This document shows positions 12,515 through 27,855 of a stretch of DNA of 27,996 bases, piece after piece. Source of the stretch: a virus; IMG/VR virus record IMGVR_UViG_3300042892_002183, positions 1-27,996 of that record; one strand, 5' to 3'. The position numbers and the translations under genes are program-made. The notes beneath the pieces are model-generated. The model did not search any database. It saw only the letters and a program-made list of their open reading frames with translations, and was not told where the DNA came from. Position 1 is the first letter of the stretch. Each line of letters begins with the position of its first letter.

Positions 12515-12845
12515 TCTACACGTTACCAGTCCGTTCTTAACCACAAGCTCATACAGTATACCGCATATCGGTAACAATGGACAGAGTGCTGGTACTCTAC
12601 GCTGGAACACTTCGGGTCAACAAATGGAAGTGTTTGATGGTATCACATGGATTAGTATTAATCAAAATGTTACAATTGGTATGAGCTACGAAGCCGATGA
12701 AGTCTTGCGATGGGCAGGATTTAAGATGCGAGAAGAAGATGAGCTTAAGGCTAAGATGGAGAAATACCCAACACTTAAATCAGCTTACGAACAGTTTAAG
12801 ATGATTGAAATATTAGTACACGAGGAAGAACAAAGTGGCACATGA
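12504..12845 (+). CDS. Small virion-like protein with beta motif and helical tail
   Basis: A 113-residue protein overlapping both neighbours. The N-terminal half has the motif AGTLRWNTSGQQMEVFDG, then TWISI. This resembles short beta repeats found in phage tail-fibre and collar proteins. The C-terminal half (about 65-110) is a charged helix. Similar two-part small proteins occur in T4-like marine phages, but I know of no function. Confidence 0.5.
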   Translation: MINNLHVTSPFLTTSSYSIPHIGNNGQSAGTLRWNTSGQQMEVFDGITWISINQNVTIGMSYEADEVLRWAGFKMREEDELKAKMEKYPTLKSAYEQFKMIEILVHEEEQSGT

Positions 12846-14397
12846 AATAGACAATTTAACAAGTAAACAAAAAGACTATGCTGTCTTTTTACCTGCACTA
12901 TCGGGCTTTTATGCAACGTATGTAGGTAAACAACGCTTTCCGGATGCTAATGGTAATTTATATGTTGCCAGTACACGTATACCAGCAGACTTTGAAAATG
13001 GTATGGAAGGACTTAATTGGCTTAATCCAGATGCGGCATATTTTCCATATCATTGGAGCCTATATTCAGCTGGACACGCCGAACTAGATGTAAACAAGCA
13101 CAGTCCAAAAGAAGATATGGTACGTAACCGTGATCGTAGTCGCTCGTTTATCTTGGGTGACTCGGGTGGTTTCCAGATTGGTAAAGGTGTGTGGGAAGGC
13201 GATTGGAAGAATCCTAACTGTCCTAAAGCACAAAAGAAACGTGAGCTAGTATTAACTTGGATGGACGCATACATGGACTATGGTATGTGTTTGGATATCC
13301 CAGCGTGGGTAGCTCGTAGTCCTGCAGGTGCTAAAGCTACAGGTATTAGCACATACGACGAAGCAGTACTAGGCACTTACATTAATAATGATTGGTTTAT
13401 CAACAACCGTACAGGTGCTTGTAAATTCTTAAATGTACTGCAAGGTGAGAATCACGCAGATGCAGACGATTGGTATGATCGTATGAAGAAATATTGTGAC
13501 CCTCAACAATACCCAGGCAAGCATTTTAATGGATGGGCAATGGGTGGACAGAACATGTGTGACGTTCACTTAGTGCTTAAACGCCTAGTAGCTATGCGCT
13601 ATGATAATCTATTACAAGAAGGCATACATGATTGGATGCACTTCTTGGGTACAAGTAAACTAGAGTGGGCATGCTTATTAACTGACATTCAACGTGCTGT
13701 TCGTAAACACGTTAATCCTAACTTTACTATCAGCTTTGACTGTGCAAGTCCATTCTTAGCTAGTGCAAACGGTCAGATCTATATTCAAACAGAAACAGAG
13801 GATCGTGGTAAGTGGACTTATCGTATGGTACCTAGCGTTGACGATAAAAAGTATGCTAAAGATACACGTAAGTTCAGCGATGCTGTATTACAAGACGGTC
13901 GATTTGCTAACTTTACAGACAGCCCTATCAGTAATCGTATTCAAATCAATGATGTCTGCTACTATGCACCCGGTGATTTAAACAAGATTGGTAAAGAAGG
14001 TCGCACTAGCTGGGATAGCTTTAGTTACGCTATACAGATGGGCCATAATGTTTGGAGTCATATTAACAGCGTGCAAGAAGCCAATCGTCAATATGATCAA
14101 GGTATTACACCTAAGATGTTGGTACAAGAAACATTCGATCGTGTATACTTTAAAGACGTAGTAGATAGTATCTTTGCTGCGCCGGATCGTGCTAGTGCTG
14201 AAGAAATTATTGAAAATCATAGCAAGTTTTGGATGCAGATTATTGGCACACGTGGCGCGACAGGTAAGAAAACTGTCAATGCTAGTACTATGTTCAATGA
14301 CCTATTCGAAACAGAAGAAGTTGAAGAACATCATATCGACGATAGTGGATTTGATGAAGCAGTGTTAGATAACTTAGAAGAGGGATTGGGGGAGTAA
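12835..14397 (+). CDS. dpdA: DpdA-like DNA 7-deazaguanine transglycosylase (TGT family)
   Basis: A 520-residue member of the tRNA-guanine transglycosylase superfamily. The motif series follows TGT. LGDSGGFQ (D109) corresponds to the D102 SGGFQ motif of bacterial TGT. LDIPAWV (D154) and LNVLQGEN correspond to the base-binding Asp and Gln segments, and WAMGGQ to the IGGL segment. FDCASPF (D302) corresponds to the FDC nucleophilic aspartate. The bacterial TGT zinc motif (CxCxxC) is absent. Phage DpdA proteins exchange guanine in DNA for a 7-deazaguanine base, which protects against restriction. FolE, QueD and QueE in the same window favour DNA over tRNA. The GTG start has GAGGAAGA upstream and overlaps the preceding stop. 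Confidence 0.82.
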   Translation: MAHEIDNLTSKQKDYAVFLPALSGFYATYVGKQRFPDANGNLYVASTRIPADFENGMEGLNWLNPDAAYFPYHWSLYSAGHAELDVNKHSPKEDMVRNRDRSRSFILGDSGGFQIGKGVWEGDWKNPNCPKAQKKRELVLTWMDAYMDYGMCLDIPAWVARSPAGAKATGISTYDEAVLGTYINNDWFINNRTGACKFLNVLQGENHADADDWYDRMKKYCDPQQYPGKHFNGWAMGGQNMCDVHLVLKRLVAMRYDNLLQEGIHDWMHFLGTSKLEWACLLTDIQRAVRKHVNPNFTISFDCASPFLASANGQIYIQTETEDRGKWTYRMVPSVDDKKYAKDTRKFSDAVLQDGRFANFTDSPISNRIQINDVCYYAPGDLNKIGKEGRTSWDSFSYAIQMGHNVWSHINSVQEANRQYDQGITPKMLVQETFDRVYFKDVVDSIFAAPDRASAEEIIENHSKFWMQIIGTRGATGKKTVNASTMFNDLFETEEVEEHHIDDSGFDEAVLDNLEEGLGE

Positions 14398-18464: not shown

Positions 18465-19160
18465 ATGTCAAAATACACAGTAAGCGAAGGTATTCGCAAC
18501 AACTTAAAAGCAAGCAACAAACGATTCTGGGCAGGCGACAACATCTCAGAATACATCACAGACGAAAACAAAGAACTATTAATTGATGAAGCGACTGAAG
18601 CATTCGAAACAGTCTTAGATACTTTGTTAATTGATCGTGAAAACGATCCTAACAGCCACGGCACAGCCAGACGACTAGCTAAGATGTACTTCAATGAGAT
18701 TATGGCAGGTCGTTATGAGCCTAATCCAGATGCTACAGCATTTCCAAATGACAGCGTAGATCGTTATGAAGGTATGTTGGTAGTACGTAGTGAACTACGC
18801 AGTATGTGTAGTCATCATCACCAACCAGTTAAAGGTGTAGCTTATATTGGTATTATTGCCGCTAGCAAACTTATTGGTTTATCTAAATACACACGTATTG
18901 CACAATGGTGTGCTACACGTGGTACCTTGCAAGAAGAGCTATGTAATGATATTACTCGTGAAATTATGAAGGCCACAGGAAGTGAGAACGTTGCTGTGTA
19001 TATTCAAGCAACGCATGGTTGCTGCGAAAATAGAGGCATTATGGCACATAGTAGCTTAACGCAAACAACTGTGCTCAAGGGTGCATTTAAAACAGATCCA
19101 GATACTAAGAAAGAGTTTTTTGATAATATTAAATTGCAACAAGAGTTTGCACCTAGATAA
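18465..19160 (+). CDS. folE: GTP cyclohydrolase I
   Basis: A 231-residue GTP cyclohydrolase I, close to the usual 190-230. It converts GTP to dihydroneopterin triphosphate, the first step to 7-deazaguanines and folate. Zinc ligands fit E. coli FolE: C115 and H118 in MCSHHHQP, and C186 in ATHGCC. The substrate-pocket segment YIGIIAASKLIGLSKYTRI is well conserved, as are the N-terminal helices. The promoter immediately upstream shares a motif with queD and gp45. With QueD and QueE it supplies the precursor for the DpdA reaction. Start supported by GGAGA eight to nine bases upstream. Confidence 0.93.
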   Translation: MSKYTVSEGIRNNLKASNKRFWAGDNISEYITDENKELLIDEATEAFETVLDTLLIDRENDPNSHGTARRLAKMYFNEIMAGRYEPNPDATAFPNDSVDRYEGMLVVRSELRSMCSHHHQPVKGVAYIGIIAASKLIGLSKYTRIAQWCATRGTLQEELCNDITREIMKATGSENVAVYIQATHGCCENRGIMAHSSLTQTTVLKGAFKTDPDTKKEFFDNIKLQQEFAPR

Positions 19161-20024: not shown

Positions 20025-20347
20025 TCCCATTGCCACCCAAAGTTACTATTAACTATGAAGTAACTATTATGGTTGATGAACTAAACGTCGATATACTTAA
20101 ATGGTATGTTGATCAAGGGCAAAATATATCCTGCAGAATATGGCATGATCATCGAGGACAGCCACATGAGGTTTCTGTAGTACAGTACGGGCAAGGTAGG
20201 CCGAGTCATAAAACTAACGATAGCAGTAATCAGCATCTACTTAGATTTCGCAAAGAAGATGCAGGTGCTGCATTAATGTTCTTAATGACGTTTAATAAAC
20301 ACGTAACGCAACACAATATGAGAGAGGTGGACAAGTATGTCTATTAG
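20021..20347 (+). CDS. Hypothetical protein
   Basis: A 108-residue frame starting with TTG over the previous stop. An ATG at 20069 would give a 92-residue protein, and neither start has a clear ribosome-binding site. It contains VDILKWYVDQGQNISCRIWHD and a His-containing segment QPHEVSVVQYG. It ends ten bases inside the phosphoribosyltransferase gene. No family recognised. Confidence 0.4.
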   Translation: MIPLPPKVTINYEVTIMVDELNVDILKWYVDQGQNISCRIWHDHRGQPHEVSVVQYGQGRPSHKTNDSSNQHLLRFRKEDAGAALMFLMTFNKHVTQHNMREVDKYVY

Positions 20348-20894
20348 GAAAGAGTATTACACCTATCAACAAATCACTGAAATGGTTAACGATATTTCAT
20401 TTCAAATGTACAAGGACAACTGGCGTCCAGATTACATTGTAGGATTAACCAGAGGTGGCTTGGTACCAGCTGTGATTATGAGCAATGCATTGGGTATTCC
20501 AATGGAAACACTTAAGGTCAGTCTGCGCGACAGCGATAGCGAGTCCGAAAGTAATCTATGGATGGCAGAAGATGCGTTTGGTTATGATTACCCAAATGAA
20601 ATAGTTGAAACCTACCCTACTTCAATATACGGCGAAGAAGGACAAGGTAAAAATATTCTTATTATCGACGATATTAACGATACTGGTGCTACATTAGATT
20701 GGATTAAACAAGATTGGCAAAGTAGTTGCATGCCCAACAGCTCAAAGTGGTTGCAAGTTTGGGGTAATAATGTTAGAATAGCTGTATTAATTGATAATTT
20801 ATCTAGTGACTTTAGTGGCAAGGTAGACTATTCAGCTAAAGAAATTAATAAAGCAGAAGACGATTCATGGATCGTGTTTCCTTGGGAAAGATAA
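20337..20894 (+). CDS. Phosphoribosyltransferase, type I
   Basis: A 185-residue type I phosphoribosyltransferase. It has the PRPP-binding motif ILIIDDINDTGATL (107-120, D111/D112) and the upstream loop IVGLTRGGLVPAVIM (about 34-48). A flexible hood region lies in between. The family moves phosphoribose between PRPP and a base, often hypoxanthine, guanine or xanthine. The base here cannot be deduced. Its place between folE and queE suggests purine or 7-deazapurine metabolism. GAGAGGTGG upstream supports the start. Confidence 0.75.
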   Translation: MSIRKEYYTYQQITEMVNDISFQMYKDNWRPDYIVGLTRGGLVPAVIMSNALGIPMETLKVSLRDSDSESESNLWMAEDAFGYDYPNEIVETYPTSIYGEEGQGKNILIIDDINDTGATLDWIKQDWQSSCMPNSSKWLQVWGNNVRIAVLIDNLSSDFSGKVDYSAKEINKAEDDSWIVFPWER

Positions 20895-20896
20895 TA

Positions 20897-21172
20897 ATGA
20901 TTGCCGATAAAACACAAGAAGCATTGATTATTCTACAAGAAGAATGTGCCGAAGTCATACAAGCAGTTAGCAAATGCCATCGTTTTGGTCTAGACAATGC
21001 ACATAAGTCCGGTGCCTCACAGCGAGCTAACTTAGAAATGGAAGTAGGTGACATGCTGGCATTAGTGGATATTTTAGTTGAGCAAGGTATTTTAGATCAA
21101 GACGGATTAGAACTTGCTATGGATAAAAAGAAAGAAAAATTAAAGATATGGTCAAAATTATATGAAACTTAA
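20897..21172 (+). CDS. MazG-like nucleotide pyrophosphohydrolase
   Basis: A 91-residue all-alpha protein with the metal-binding signature of the MazG/dUTPase-like superfamily: EExxE at E15-E16-E19 (LQEECAEVIQAVSK) and ExxD at E49-D52 (EMEVGDML). Such enzymes hydrolyse nucleoside triphosphates to monophosphates and pyrophosphate. I place the start at the ATG three bases after the preceding stop; an in-frame upstream start would lie inside the phosphoribosyltransferase. The C-terminus overlaps queE by 11 bases. The substrate could be a normal dNTP or a modified purine nucleotide. Confidence 0.75.
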   Translation: MIADKTQEALIILQEECAEVIQAVSKCHRFGLDNAHKSGASQRANLEMEVGDMLALVDILVEQGILDQDGLELAMDKKKEKLKIWSKLYET

Positions 21173-22028
21173 AGTCAGTGAAATATTTTATTCAGCACAA
21201 GGTGAAGGCCGTTTTGTAGGCGTACCTAGTGTATTCCTACGTACATTTGGCTGTAACTTTACCTGTAGCGGGTTTGGTATGACCAGAGGTACTGCTAGTC
21301 AAGAAGCAGACGAAGTTGCTAAAACTGTACAACTGTACAAAACATATGAAGAACTTCCGCTGGTCAATACAGGCTGTGATAGTTATGCATCATGGCATCC
21401 AAAGTTTAAAAGTTTAAGCCCAACCTACGAAACATCTGAAGTAATTAGTAAGATGCTGGCCCTAACACCTAACGGTCGTTGGGCACAAGACAATGGCAAT
21501 GATGTACACTTGGTAATTACAGGTGGCGAGCCGTTGCTAGGTTGGCAGAAAGTATATCCCGAGATGTTAGAAGCAATCGAGATGCGTGATCTTAAAAACA
21601 TCACGTTTGAAACTAACGGCACCCAGGAACTCAGCGAAGACTTTATAGCATATTTGAAAGAATGGGTAGGTATTCCGAGTATTACACAGCGTGAAATTAC
21701 ATTCAGTGTTAGTGCTAAACTAAGCCCGAGTGGTGAGAAGTGGGAGGATGCTATCAAGCCAGAGATTGTAACTAGCTATCAACAGGTAGGACGTACATAT
21801 CTTAAATTTGTAGTTGAGAATCCAGACGACTTTGAAGAAGTAGAAGAGGCAGTAGCAGAATATCGCCGTGAAGGATTTGAAGGTGTTGTATACATTATGC
21901 CTGTTGGTGGTGTTGTTAGCGTTTACAACGGCAACAAGTTTAATGTAGCAGACGAAGCTATGTTACGTGGTTATTATTACAGTCCAAGATTACATGTTGA
22001 TCTTTGGGGTAACTCATGGGGCAAATAA
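21162..22028 (+). CDS. queE: 7-carboxy-7-deazaguanine synthase, divergent cluster motif
   Basis: A 288-residue radical-SAM enzyme that turns 6-carboxytetrahydropterin into CDG. Family features are EIFYSAQGEGRFVGVP (7-22), FLRTFGCN (25-32), ITGGEPLLGW and FETNGT. The cluster motif is unusual. C31 and C35 give the normal CxxxC, but the expected third Cys two residues later is Phe (F38). The best third ligand is C72 in GCDSYASW, which matches the canonical CD(S/T)xYAW context. The spacing is therefore CX3CX36C with an insert of about 34 residues. Size is above the usual 210-240 residues because of this insert. MetK downstream would supply AdoMet. Confidence 0.83.
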   Translation: MKLKVSEIFYSAQGEGRFVGVPSVFLRTFGCNFTCSGFGMTRGTASQEADEVAKTVQLYKTYEELPLVNTGCDSYASWHPKFKSLSPTYETSEVISKMLALTPNGRWAQDNGNDVHLVITGGEPLLGWQKVYPEMLEAIEMRDLKNITFETNGTQELSEDFIAYLKEWVGIPSITQREITFSVSAKLSPSGEKWEDAIKPEIVTSYQQVGRTYLKFVVENPDDFEEVEEAVAEYRREGFEGVVYIMPVGGVVSVYNGNKFNVADEAMLRGYYYSPRLHVDLWGNSWGK

Positions 22029-22228: not shown

Positions 22229-22353
22229 TTAAACGATTTATTAAATGGTTAAAAGAATGGCGAGATATTTTTAACGACCCTAGTGCTTGGGATGATAGTA
22301 ATGACCCATGTCCGTATAAATGTAATTGTAAAGATAAAAAGGAAAAAAATTGA
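22225..22353 (+). CDS. 42-residue small protein with Cys-rich tail
   Basis: An ATG overlapping the previous stop (ATGA) opens a 42-codon frame ending in TGA that overlaps the TTG start of metK. The product begins with an amphipathic basic helix (MIKRFIKWLKEWRDIF), then DPSAWDD, and ends with CPYKCNCK. Perfect overlap at both ends and the absence of any other use for these bases support translation. Confidence 0.5.
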   Translation: MIKRFIKWLKEWRDIFNDPSAWDDSNDPCPYKCNCKDKKEKN

Positions 22354-23444
22354 GTTATTTATTTACAAGTGAAAGTGTTAGTGAAGGTCATCCGGATAAA
22401 GTAGCAGACGCGATCAGTGATGCAATTTTAGATCTAGTTATGACCCACGAAGATGCAAGTATGCGTGTTGCCTGCGAAACTTTAGTTACCACTAACCGTG
22501 TTATTGTTGCAGGAGAATACAAGAATGTTGCTCTACATGAAGCACAAATCGACAGTGTCGTACGCAAAACGATTAAAAACATTGGTTACGAGCAAGCAGG
22601 GTTTGATTGGCGTACAGTTGAGATCACTAACCTACTACACGGGCAAAGCGCAGACATTGCACTAGGCACAGATACATTTGGTGCGGGTGACCAAGGTCTG
22701 ATGTTTGGTTATGCTACAAACAAGACACCTAACTACATGCCGGCAACTATTTACTACAGTCACAAAATTGTTGAAGCACTAACAAAGTTACGTAAAGAAG
22801 GCGCTACTTGGTTAGCCCCAGATGCTAAATCGCAGGTGACTTTGCAGTTTAATGACGATCATTCTATTAGTCATGCTACTAAAATTGTATGCTCAACCCA
22901 GCACAGCGAAGACACAGACATTGCTACAGTACGTGAAAATGTAGAGAACATTATTAGAACTATCTTGCCAGCGGAGTTGATTACTAGTGATACAGAGTTT
23001 TTAATTAATCCAACTGGTCGTTTTGTTATTGGTGGGCCAGATGGTGACACTGGACTTACAGGGCGTAAGATTATTGTCGATACCTACGGTGGTAGTTGCC
23101 CGCATGGTGGCGGTGCGTTCAGTGGTAAGGATCCTACTAAAGTAGATCGTTCAGCAGCTTATATGGCTAGGTACTTGGCTAAGAATATCGTGGCCAGCGG
23201 CAAGGCTACACATGCCACAGTACAGTTATCGTATGCCATTGGTGTAGAACAACCTATGAGTGTGTATGTTGATAGTGACGGAAATAATTATGAGTTAACA
23301 GCTTGGATAATTACCAATGTAGATCTAACTCCTAGGGGCATTATTAACAGATTTAAACTATTCCGCCCTATCTACAGTAGTACTACTAACTATGGACACT
23401 TTGGTAAGGATGGCTTACCTTGGGAAGAGTTGGATTTATTTTAA
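22350..23444 (+). CDS. metK: S-adenosylmethionine synthetase
   Basis: A 364-residue methionine adenosyltransferase making AdoMet from methionine and ATP, slightly shorter than E. coli MetK (384). Active-site motifs are present: GHPDK (H14, D16), GAGDQG (111-116), GGPDGDTGLTGRK, and the Gly-rich loop GGGAFSGKDPTKVDRSA (253-269). The start is TTG, supported by AAGGA (22339-22343) six bases upstream and by family alignment of the N-terminus. A phage copy would lift AdoMet supply for radical-SAM QueE and the two methyltransferase-like proteins. Confidence 0.95.
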   Translation: MSYLFTSESVSEGHPDKVADAISDAILDLVMTHEDASMRVACETLVTTNRVIVAGEYKNVALHEAQIDSVVRKTIKNIGYEQAGFDWRTVEITNLLHGQSADIALGTDTFGAGDQGLMFGYATNKTPNYMPATIYYSHKIVEALTKLRKEGATWLAPDAKSQVTLQFNDDHSISHATKIVCSTQHSEDTDIATVRENVENIIRTILPAELITSDTEFLINPTGRFVIGGPDGDTGLTGRKIIVDTYGGSCPHGGGAFSGKDPTKVDRSAAYMARYLAKNIVASGKATHATVQLSYAIGVEQPMSVYVDSDGNNYELTAWIITNVDLTPRGIINRFKLFRPIYSSTTNYGHFGKDGLPWEELDLF

Positions 23445-23453
23445 GGATTAAGT

Positions 23454-23861
23454 ATGATTGAAAAGAAACTTTGGGATAGTATTGATGGCAGTATTCTAAA
23501 AGGCCTGCCTAATGCGGCTAAGGGCTACGAGCAACGCATAAGTATTCCGGAATTTACATTTTTAGGTGGGGCTAATCAGCCCGACTTCGGCGACGTTACT
23601 ATTTGGTTTTACGGCGATAGTAAAACTATTGAATTGAAGAGCCTTAAACAGTATCTATTCCAATATCGCGATACTAGACTTAGTTATGAACGTGCATTAG
23701 ATGTAATGTATAAGCATCTTAAGGCTGTTTATGAGCCAGATCGCATACGCATAGAAATTGATTATCGCCCTCGCGGCGGTATAAGTAGTAAACTAACAGT
23801 TGATTCAGACTGGGGCCACTTAGGTGGAACTGATAATGTTTGGCAACACCACAAGGATTAA
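23454..23861 (+). CDS. QueF-like T-fold protein lacking the catalytic Cys
   Basis: A 135-residue protein matching unimodular QueF across most of its length. It has IPEFTFLGGANQPDFG (31-46), the QueF signature ELKSLKQYLFQYR (60-72), E79 at the position of Bacillus subtilis QueF E97, and PRGGIS near the end. QueF reduces preQ0 to preQ1 through a covalent thioimide on Cys55. Here that position is Gly (G38) and the loop is one residue shorter, while Asp44 (QPDF) is retained; the His before E79 is Tyr. A nitrile reductase is therefore unlikely. With no QueC in view, it may act on CDG, for example as a decarboxylase, or bind a 7-deazaguanine. Nine bases after metK. Confidence 0.75.
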   Translation: MIEKKLWDSIDGSILKGLPNAAKGYEQRISIPEFTFLGGANQPDFGDVTIWFYGDSKTIELKSLKQYLFQYRDTRLSYERALDVMYKHLKAVYEPDRIRIEIDYRPRGGISSKLTVDSDWGHLGGTDNVWQHHKD

Positions 23862-24377: not shown

Positions 24378-24677
24378 ATGAAATTAATCTTAGCAGTATT
24401 ATTATTAGGTAGTTGTATCACAGCAAATGCTAATCAAGCATTGGCACAGAAAAGTGGTTGTCTAGCATGTCACGCAGTTGATCAAAAAATCTTAGGCCCA
24501 GCGTATAAAGACGTTGCTAAGAAATATAAAGGTCAAGCTGATGCAGAGGCTAAACTAATTGCCAAAGTTAAAAAAGGTGGTAGTGGAGTATGGGGTCCTA
24601 TTCCAATGCCGCCAATGAGTCCACAAATCAAAGACGAGGATATTAAAACCCTTGTTAAATGGGTGTTAACGCAGTAA
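24378..24677 (+). CDS. Small periplasmic cytochrome c (c551/c552 type)
   Basis: A 99-residue class I cytochrome c, an electron carrier between respiratory complexes. It has a cleavable signal sequence (about residues 1-18, ending ITANA|N), heme motif CLACH at 28-32, and KILGPAYKDVAKKY. The likely axial Met is M77 in GPIPMPP. The C-terminal helix ends IKTLVKWVL. All residues needed for heme attachment and ligation are present, so it is probably functional after host cytochrome-c maturation. LGSC at 10-13 is a marginal lipobox, so a lipoprotein form is possible. A strong terminator follows, making it a separately controlled unit. The sequence style recalls betaproteobacterial and related c551/c552 proteins, so it was probably taken from a host. 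Confidence 0.88.
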   Translation: MKLILAVLLLGSCITANANQALAQKSGCLACHAVDQKILGPAYKDVAKKYKGQADAEAKLIAKVKKGGSGVWGPIPMPPMSPQIKDEDIKTLVKWVLTQ

Positions 24678-27303: not shown

Positions 27304-27855
27304 ATGGCACACGTAATTGATAAAACATTTGAATTCTGTTATGGACACAGAGTACACACACAACGACTTAATGGCGAGTATGCAGCAGACTTAAAGTGTG
27401 CCTGTCGTCACCTACACGGACACGAAGGTAAGATGCAGGTGTTCTTAAAGAGCCCGACTGGCGTTTTAGATCCAACTGGTATGGTAACTGACTTTAGGCA
27501 CCTAGAGTGGTTAAAGAAGTGGATCAATGAATACATCGATCATCAGTTTATGCTTGACGTTAACGATCCGTTGTTTGGACAGTTAATTGGCTCACGTACA
27601 ATGATTCCAGTATACATTCCAGAAACAGACAAGTATGCAGGTAGTATACTTGATTTAAGTGACTTAGAACCAAACACACCAGAGTATGAATACTTCGAAG
27701 GTTTCTTTATTGTAGACTTTGTTCCTACTAGTGAAAACTTATCTAGTTGGATGGCAGAGTTAGTAGATGCTAAGATGAAGAAACTAAACGTAACAGTAGA
27801 TCGCATTGACTGGTGGGAAACTCCTAAGTCACGTAGTACGTTTATTAGAGGCTAA
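27304..27855 (+). CDS. queD: 6-carboxy-5,6,7,8-tetrahydropterin synthase
   Basis: A 183-residue QueD/PTPS-family T-fold enzyme, longer than E. coli QueD (121) because of loops in the middle. It converts dihydroneopterin triphosphate to 6-carboxytetrahydropterin. Metal-binding histidines are H15 (CYGHRV), H38 and H40 (CRHLHGHEG). The catalytic Cys is C34, preceding HLHGH at the normal spacing. The DHQFMLD segment corresponds to DHRxLN, and WWETPKS near the end supplies the conserved Glu. It lies 8 kb from folE but shares a promoter motif with it. AAGGAAAG supports the start. Confidence 0.92.
   Translation: MAHVIDKTFEFCYGHRVHTQRLNGEYAADLKCACRHLHGHEGKMQVFLKSPTGVLDPTGMVTDFRHLEWLKKWINEYIDHQFMLDVNDPLFGQLIGSRTMIPVYIPETDKYAGSILDLSDLEPNTPEYEYFEGFFIVDFVPTSENLSSWMAELVDAKMKKLNVTVDRIDWWETPKSRSTFIRG

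Follow-up and report, generated by a model that had tools for sequence, protein, structure and literature searches.

A QueF-like protein without the catalytic cysteine in phages and bacteria, possibly a reductase of the one-carbon cycle

The plus-strand gene at positions 23,454 to 23,861 of the 27,996-nt viral sequence analysed here (the window) encodes a 135-residue QueF-like protein without the catalytic cysteine, as identified from the Pfam QueF family (PF14489), an AlphaFold2 model and its residues. The label QFL is used for this protein and its cysteine-less relatives. Judging from their sequences, the QFLs are a clade of their own in phages and bacteria, distinct from cysteine-containing QueF. 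A role in the S-adenosylmethionine (SAM)/one-carbon cycle is favoured overall, and decarboxylation of CDG is no longer favoured. With a probability of roughly 40%, QFL is an NAD(P)H-dependent reductase of this cycle, possibly a flavin-free methylene-tetrahydrofolate reductase. This reading draws on the separate clade, its residue pattern, the SAHH and MetK neighbours, a bacterial MetK-QFL-MetH-SAHH gene order and complementarity with MetF; the substrate, cofactor use and mechanism are those that we infer. QFL may serve as a one-carbon enzyme that has gone unrecognised, and not in DNA modification.

QFL has the QueF fold

PF14489 was the only Pfam family matched by the QFL open reading frame (ORF) (E = 3e-17; 63 bits, cut-off 27.3). 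The closest solved relatives were the Bacillus subtilis QueF chains 4fgc, which is the structure of the C55A mutant, and 4f8b; both matched at E of approximately 1e-11. When an AlphaFold2 model built from 32 relatives (pLDDT 85.1, pTM 0.80) was searched with Foldseek, the best PDB match was QueF (4fgc; E = 6.6e-10, TM 0.74), and the lower-ranked matches, to FolE and archaeal QueF-Like, indicated a T-fold. The relationship to QueF proposed in the initial annotation was therefore confirmed by structure prediction and overlay. The window QFL is a single-domain QueF-fold protein, and a chance match is excluded.

The NCBIfam preQ1 synthase model TIGR03139 gave the window QFL 76.7 bits and two other sequences 77.4 and 84.5 bits, all below its cut-off of 86.9; the cysteine-containing QueF of phage phiSM scored 96.3 bits. 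Proteins of the QFL clade score as QueF with PF14489 and would be misread as queuosine or DNA-modification enzymes.

The catalytic cysteine is lost and the remaining pocket is conserved

QueF has been defined by Cys55, Asp62, Glu97 and the QueF motif, with sequences that lack any of these excluded; the motif binds NADPH and Glu97 anchors the substrate (PMC5372742). The window QFL retains Asp62 (as D44), Glu97 (as E79), the QueF motif (ELKSLKQY) and the QPDF sequence, together with Glu78, Lys80, Lys83 and Arg125. The loop that reads CPKTGQPDF in B. subtilis is GGANQPDF in the window, such that Gly38 takes the place of Cys55 and one residue is missing from the loop. The initial annotation had described both this loss and the retained ELKSLK, QPDF and Glu97 equivalent, and the alignment upheld it on each point. 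A second substitution, His96 to Tyr78, was absent from that description.

The pattern extends across the clade. In an alignment with 29 cysteine-containing comparators, all 23 QFLs had lost Cys55 and carried Tyr in place of His96, and all 23 retained Asp62, Glu78, Lys80, Lys83, Glu97 and Arg125; Cys55 was present in 29/29 canonical comparators. Gly and Tyr occupied the Cys55 and His96 positions at each of 86 phage QFL loci, and Cys55 was replaced or deleted in all 11 bacterial QFLs. A cysteine from elsewhere in the protein that took over the active site would have told against the initial reading; no Cys is conserved at any position of the QFL clade. The clade also has an extra conserved tail (DSDW..GG).

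QueC is absent from QFL phages

No queC gene was detected in the window. A contig with 99.99% identity to it over 21,161 bases continues for a further 17 kb and contained none either, so that the absence of queC on which the initial annotation relied also held just outside the window. The phage QFL contigs likewise yielded no canonical QueC. By comparison, queC was nearby for all nine cysteine-containing phage QueFs examined with their neighbourhoods (Dp-1, phiSM, HCTV-5, HVTV-1, R26L, Pan1, Funsized, Mufasa8 and Knocker). In this comparison, which the initial annotation had asked for, loss of the cysteine tracks with missing QueC. The loss of the catalytic cysteine and the absence of queC support the earlier claim that preQ0 is not reduced in the known way, and the conclusion that QFL is not a nitrile reductase of a type already known is well supported.

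In the G009 phage, which also encodes DpdA, FolE, QueD, QueE and QFL, ORF 206228-206848 (L097:6228-6845), beside an IscU-like gene, encodes a diverged PP-loop ATPase of the QueC family, whose C terminus carries a CxxCxxC motif. On its scores (27 bits with PF06508; 15.6 with TIGR00364 against a cut-off of 150) it is improbable as a QueC and was not accepted as one.

Genes near QFL in the window and in other phages

Immediately upstream of QFL, the window gene at 22,350 to 23,444 (plus strand) encodes the SAM synthetase MetK (PF02773, E = 2.6e-57; also PF02772 and PF00438). The gap between the two genes, read directly from the sequence, is 9 nt, and an AAGGA ribosome-binding-like sequence (23,443 to 23,447, plus strand) overlaps the metK stop codon and lies 6 nt 5' of the QFL start. 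This arrangement suggests that QFL is transcribed in an operon with metK.

Four further plus-strand genes belong to a deazaguanine pathway: FolE GTP cyclohydrolase I (18,465 to 19,160; PF01227, E = 1.5e-38), a QueE-like 7-carboxy-7-deazaguanine synthase (21,162 to 22,028; phrog_2076, E = 3.9e-55), a QueD-like 6-pyruvoyl/6-carboxy-tetrahydropterin synthase (27,304 to 27,855; PF01242, E = 8.8e-26) and a 520-residue DpdA-like DNA guanine transglycosylase (12,835 to 14,397). The last was not matched in Pfam, PHROG, NCBIfam or PADLOC; all 50 PDB matches listed for its AlphaFold2 model (pTM 0.81) were TGT structures (best E = 1.5e-6), which is the fold expected of DpdA.

Phage QFLs were grouped into 39 clusters at 95% identity. 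SAHH was adjacent to QFL in 20/39 clusters, and MetK was present in the fetched flanks of 12 and adjacent in six. QueE and QueD were each found in the flanks of 10 clusters, with QueD directly adjacent in six, FolE in seven and DpdA in three. SAHH and MetK are thus the genes that travel most with QFL; several QFL phages have neither nearby. The gene order in G009 is DpdA-FolE-QueD-QueE-MetK-QFL-SAHH. MetF was not found beside SAHH at any of 80 loci from phages without QFL.

Four loci (L443, L458, L466 and L469) have QueE-MetK-SAHH blocks without QFL, so the link of MetK and SAHH to QueE does not depend on QFL. In the G012 and G013 phages an IscU-like gene is directly upstream of QFL (L045 9598-10008 in G013).

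QFL and the CDG/DpdA pathway appear to occur independently

The initial annotation had argued that a reaction on CDG fits QFL better. QFL does occur with DpdA, FolE, QueD and QueE, and without canonical QueC, in the window and in G009, G022 and G034. However, QueD, QueE, FolE and three DpdA types were all undetected by HMM or phmmer searches, which for some covered the whole record, of QFL contigs of 338 (G030), 197 (G026), 148 (G029), 146 (G013), 142 (G025) and 111 kb, from genomes that are possibly incomplete; the association of QFL with QueD, QueE and DpdA without QueC fails in these five named genomes and in G031, their completeness not being given. An 88-kb contig (G004) was dropped as a further example of QFL without CDG genes when alignment to G009 revealed that the CDG-gene region is missing from G004.

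The converse comparison was made from DpdA. As PF01702 is blind to phage DpdA, with no match even in phages annotated with a transglycosylase, HMMs of phage DpdAs and the structure model were used instead. The window DpdA belongs to a large family, found on more than 590 pattern-matched viral contigs. Among 80 loci of this type, taken with flanks of up to 10 kb, FolE was present at 39 and QueE at 27, and neither QueC nor QFL was found at any. The whole reference records of PA5oct and Phosso contained DpdA, QueD and QueE, with no QueC and no QueF-family match. From these two phages and the 80 loci, the QueC-less DpdA pathway does not require QFL. QFL appears to be independent of the CDG pathway, the two occurring together in the window. 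CDG is consequently no longer favoured as the substrate, in view of the large QFL contigs without CDG genes, the QueC-less DpdA pathways without QFL, the NADPH motif and the SAHH and MetK neighbours. The window-type DpdA itself represents a large, poorly annotated QueC-less lineage.

Bacterial QFLs and the absence of MetF

Bacterial QFLs escaped a single-sequence scan of genome contigs and were found by a profile scan. They are cysteine-less, have 49-57% identity to the query and occur in Myxococcota and other delta-type metagenome-assembled genomes (MAGs). In a phylogeny that included 29 canonical QueFs, some on long branches, the QFLs grouped together to one side of a branch with 96/93 support, and most of the bacterial QFLs, those of delta type, were a single clade. 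Phage-type QFLs were also observed in two Halieaceae MAGs (L262:8001-8402 and L263:1862-2263), where the neighbours were an HNH endonuclease, a shikimate-kinase-like gene and a sulfatase.

One bacterial locus (L277, labelled Methylococcaceae TMED69; genome G047) has the order MetK-QFL-MetH-SAHH, in which the MetH is a complete cobalamin methionine synthase, folate-binding domain included; other bacterial QFLs lack methyl-cycle neighbours. Since this operon holds all steps of the methyl cycle except MetF, it was asked whether QFL stands in for MetF. MetF (PF02219) was absent from all 11 Myxococcota and delta-type QFL genomes, and the hypothesis was fixed after this look and before the Myxococcota phylum was sampled.

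In the sample of 284 Myxococcota genomes, PF02219 was present in 260 and QFL (E <1e-90) in eight; the sample is probably not random for QFL genomes, and the frequency of QFL is not readable from it. PF02219 was missing from all eight QFL-positive genomes, which were among the 24 MetF-less genomes, and was present in 260/276 QFL-negative genomes (missing in 16, approximately 6%). The association between QFL and MetF absence had a Fisher p of 8e-10, a value that assumes independent genomes when the QFLs are one clade. Of the 29 Myxococcota with Cys-type QueF matches, 28 were MetF-positive; 22 of those proteins were read and all had the Cys. Because the delta-type bacterial QFLs form one clade, the loss of MetF may have been one event, and this, with a background of approximately 6%, makes the complementarity weak evidence. 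In addition, G047, the genome with the methyl-cycle operon, has both QFL and MetF, and PF02219 does not detect Mfr-type reductases (PMC7857596).

Proposed function of QFL

If QFL is a methyl-cycle reductase, it would reduce 5,10-methylene-tetrahydrofolate to 5-methyl-tetrahydrofolate without a flavin. Glu79 would anchor the pterin ring, as preQ0 is anchored in QueF, and the retained QueF motif and Arg107 would hold NADPH. The hydride would pass directly to the 5-iminium carbon, and a thioimide-forming cysteine would then not be needed. In methylene-tetrahydropterin reductases the carrier is protonated to a 5-iminium ion before it takes the hydride, and mycobacterial Mfr transfers hydride directly from NAD(P)H to methylene-H4F without a flavin (PMC11094777). 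By analogy, the QFL pocket, with its ring-anchoring Glu, NADPH motif and no nucleophilic cysteine, is compatible with such chemistry. In phages, QFL would keep SAM supplied together with MetK and, in many relatives, SAHH. We tentatively suggest that a QueF-derived, flavin-free and NADPH-dependent T-fold enzyme replaced MetF in a bacterial lineage and that large phages carry it with MetK and SAHH to run the methyl cycle of the host.

The one-clade distribution of the QFLs, the background of MetF-less genomes, the presence of MetF in G047 and the blindness of PF02219 to Mfr, in genomes whose completeness is not given, all weigh against the methyl-cycle reductase. So do the bacterial QFLs located away from methyl-cycle genes, the phages without MetK or SAHH nearby, the QFL-free QueE-MetK-SAHH blocks, the adjacency of QueD in 6/39 clusters and the CDG pathway in the window itself.

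The MetK, SAHH and MetH neighbourhood and the retained T-fold pocket and NADPH motif would also suit a protein that partners SAHH or MetK, or another NAD(P)H- or pterin-dependent reaction of the folate/methyl cycle, such as that of a dihydropterin reductase or dihydrofolate reductase. This explanation is rather unlikely; the complementarity is known for MetF, the only folate gene compared.

DpdL is reportedly a QueF-family phage protein of a QueC-less pathway and a proposed phage CDG decarboxylase. A DpdL-like QFL would convert CDG to 7-deazaguanine, which DpdA would then insert into phage DNA. The four phages that combine QFL with DpdA, FolE, QueD and QueE but no canonical QueC are consistent with this route, as are the QueD genes that adjoin QFL in six clusters, the QueE genes near 10 of the 39 and the retained Glu that binds a guanine-like ring. 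It is nonetheless unlikely, given the large QFL contigs without a detected CDG gene or DpdA and the QueC-less DpdA pathways without QFL; the conserved NADPH motif is also harder to account for in a decarboxylase, which would have no need of it, and points to a reductase. None of the papers searched linked DpdL to 7-deazaguanine, and nothing useful came up on QueF with SAHH. Two sets of candidate DpdL carriers were rejected: the QueF-containing mycobacteriophages and Mufasa8 retain the cysteine and have QueC, and in Bipper, a phage without QueC, the locus encodes no QueF-like protein, gp4 being unrelated.

The loss of both Cys55 and His96 would suit a QueF derivative that binds or regulates without catalysis, but this is improbable for a protein that is 91% identical between the window and L007, with invariant pocket and NADPH residues, and that is more conserved than its neighbours (in L011: QFL 91%, FolE 81%, QueE 70%, MetK 70%). 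A preQ0 reductase in which another residue replaces Cys55 would account for the QueF fold, Glu97, Asp62 and the NADPH motif, but is highly improbable given a clade with no conserved cysteine, phages with no QueC to make preQ0 and scores below the TIGR03139 cut-off.

Comparison with known systems

QFL resembles unimodular QueF (B. subtilis; 4f8b, 4fgc) in its T-fold, 28% identity, E(S/L)K(S/A)hK motif, Asp62, Glu97 and Arg125, and differs from it in the missing Cys55, the shorter loop, the Tyr at His96, the additional tail and the sub-threshold TIGR03139 score. The QueF-Like archaeosine synthase (5jyx) has the same fold (target-normalised TM up to 0.84); according to the title of its entry it forms a Cys thioimide, and that cysteine is absent from QFL. 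DpdL reportedly shares with QFL the QueF family, phage carriage and a QueC-less pathway, but QFL occurs outside CDG pathways as well. MetF/MTHFR (PF02219) and mycobacterial Mfr catalyse the reaction proposed for QFL, and the QFL-positive Myxococcota lack PF02219. These enzymes are TIM barrels, whereas QFL has a T-fold, and there is no sequence or fold relation; neither a TIM barrel nor PF02219 was found in QFL, for which the model is a T-fold and PF14489 the sole Pfam family.

As a methyl-cycle reductase, QFL would fill a gap in MetF-less genomes, supply a central one-carbon step with an unrelated enzyme, and show that several SAM-cycle steps travel together in phages. Replacement of MetF would imply a new fold for methylene-tetrahydrofolate reduction, with no catalytic cysteine needed. 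As a CDG decarboxylase, QFL would provide a conserved, testable family for that step.

Other genes in the window

A phosphoribosyltransferase gene and a MazG-like pyrophosphohydrolase gene (20,337 to 20,894 and 20,867 to 21,172) are just upstream of QueE, and may provide a nucleotide-pool route for a deazaguanine base. The window also contains a cytochrome c-like ORF (24,378 to 24,677; PF00034, E = 6.8e-10), carried by the phage and conserved in its closest relatives.
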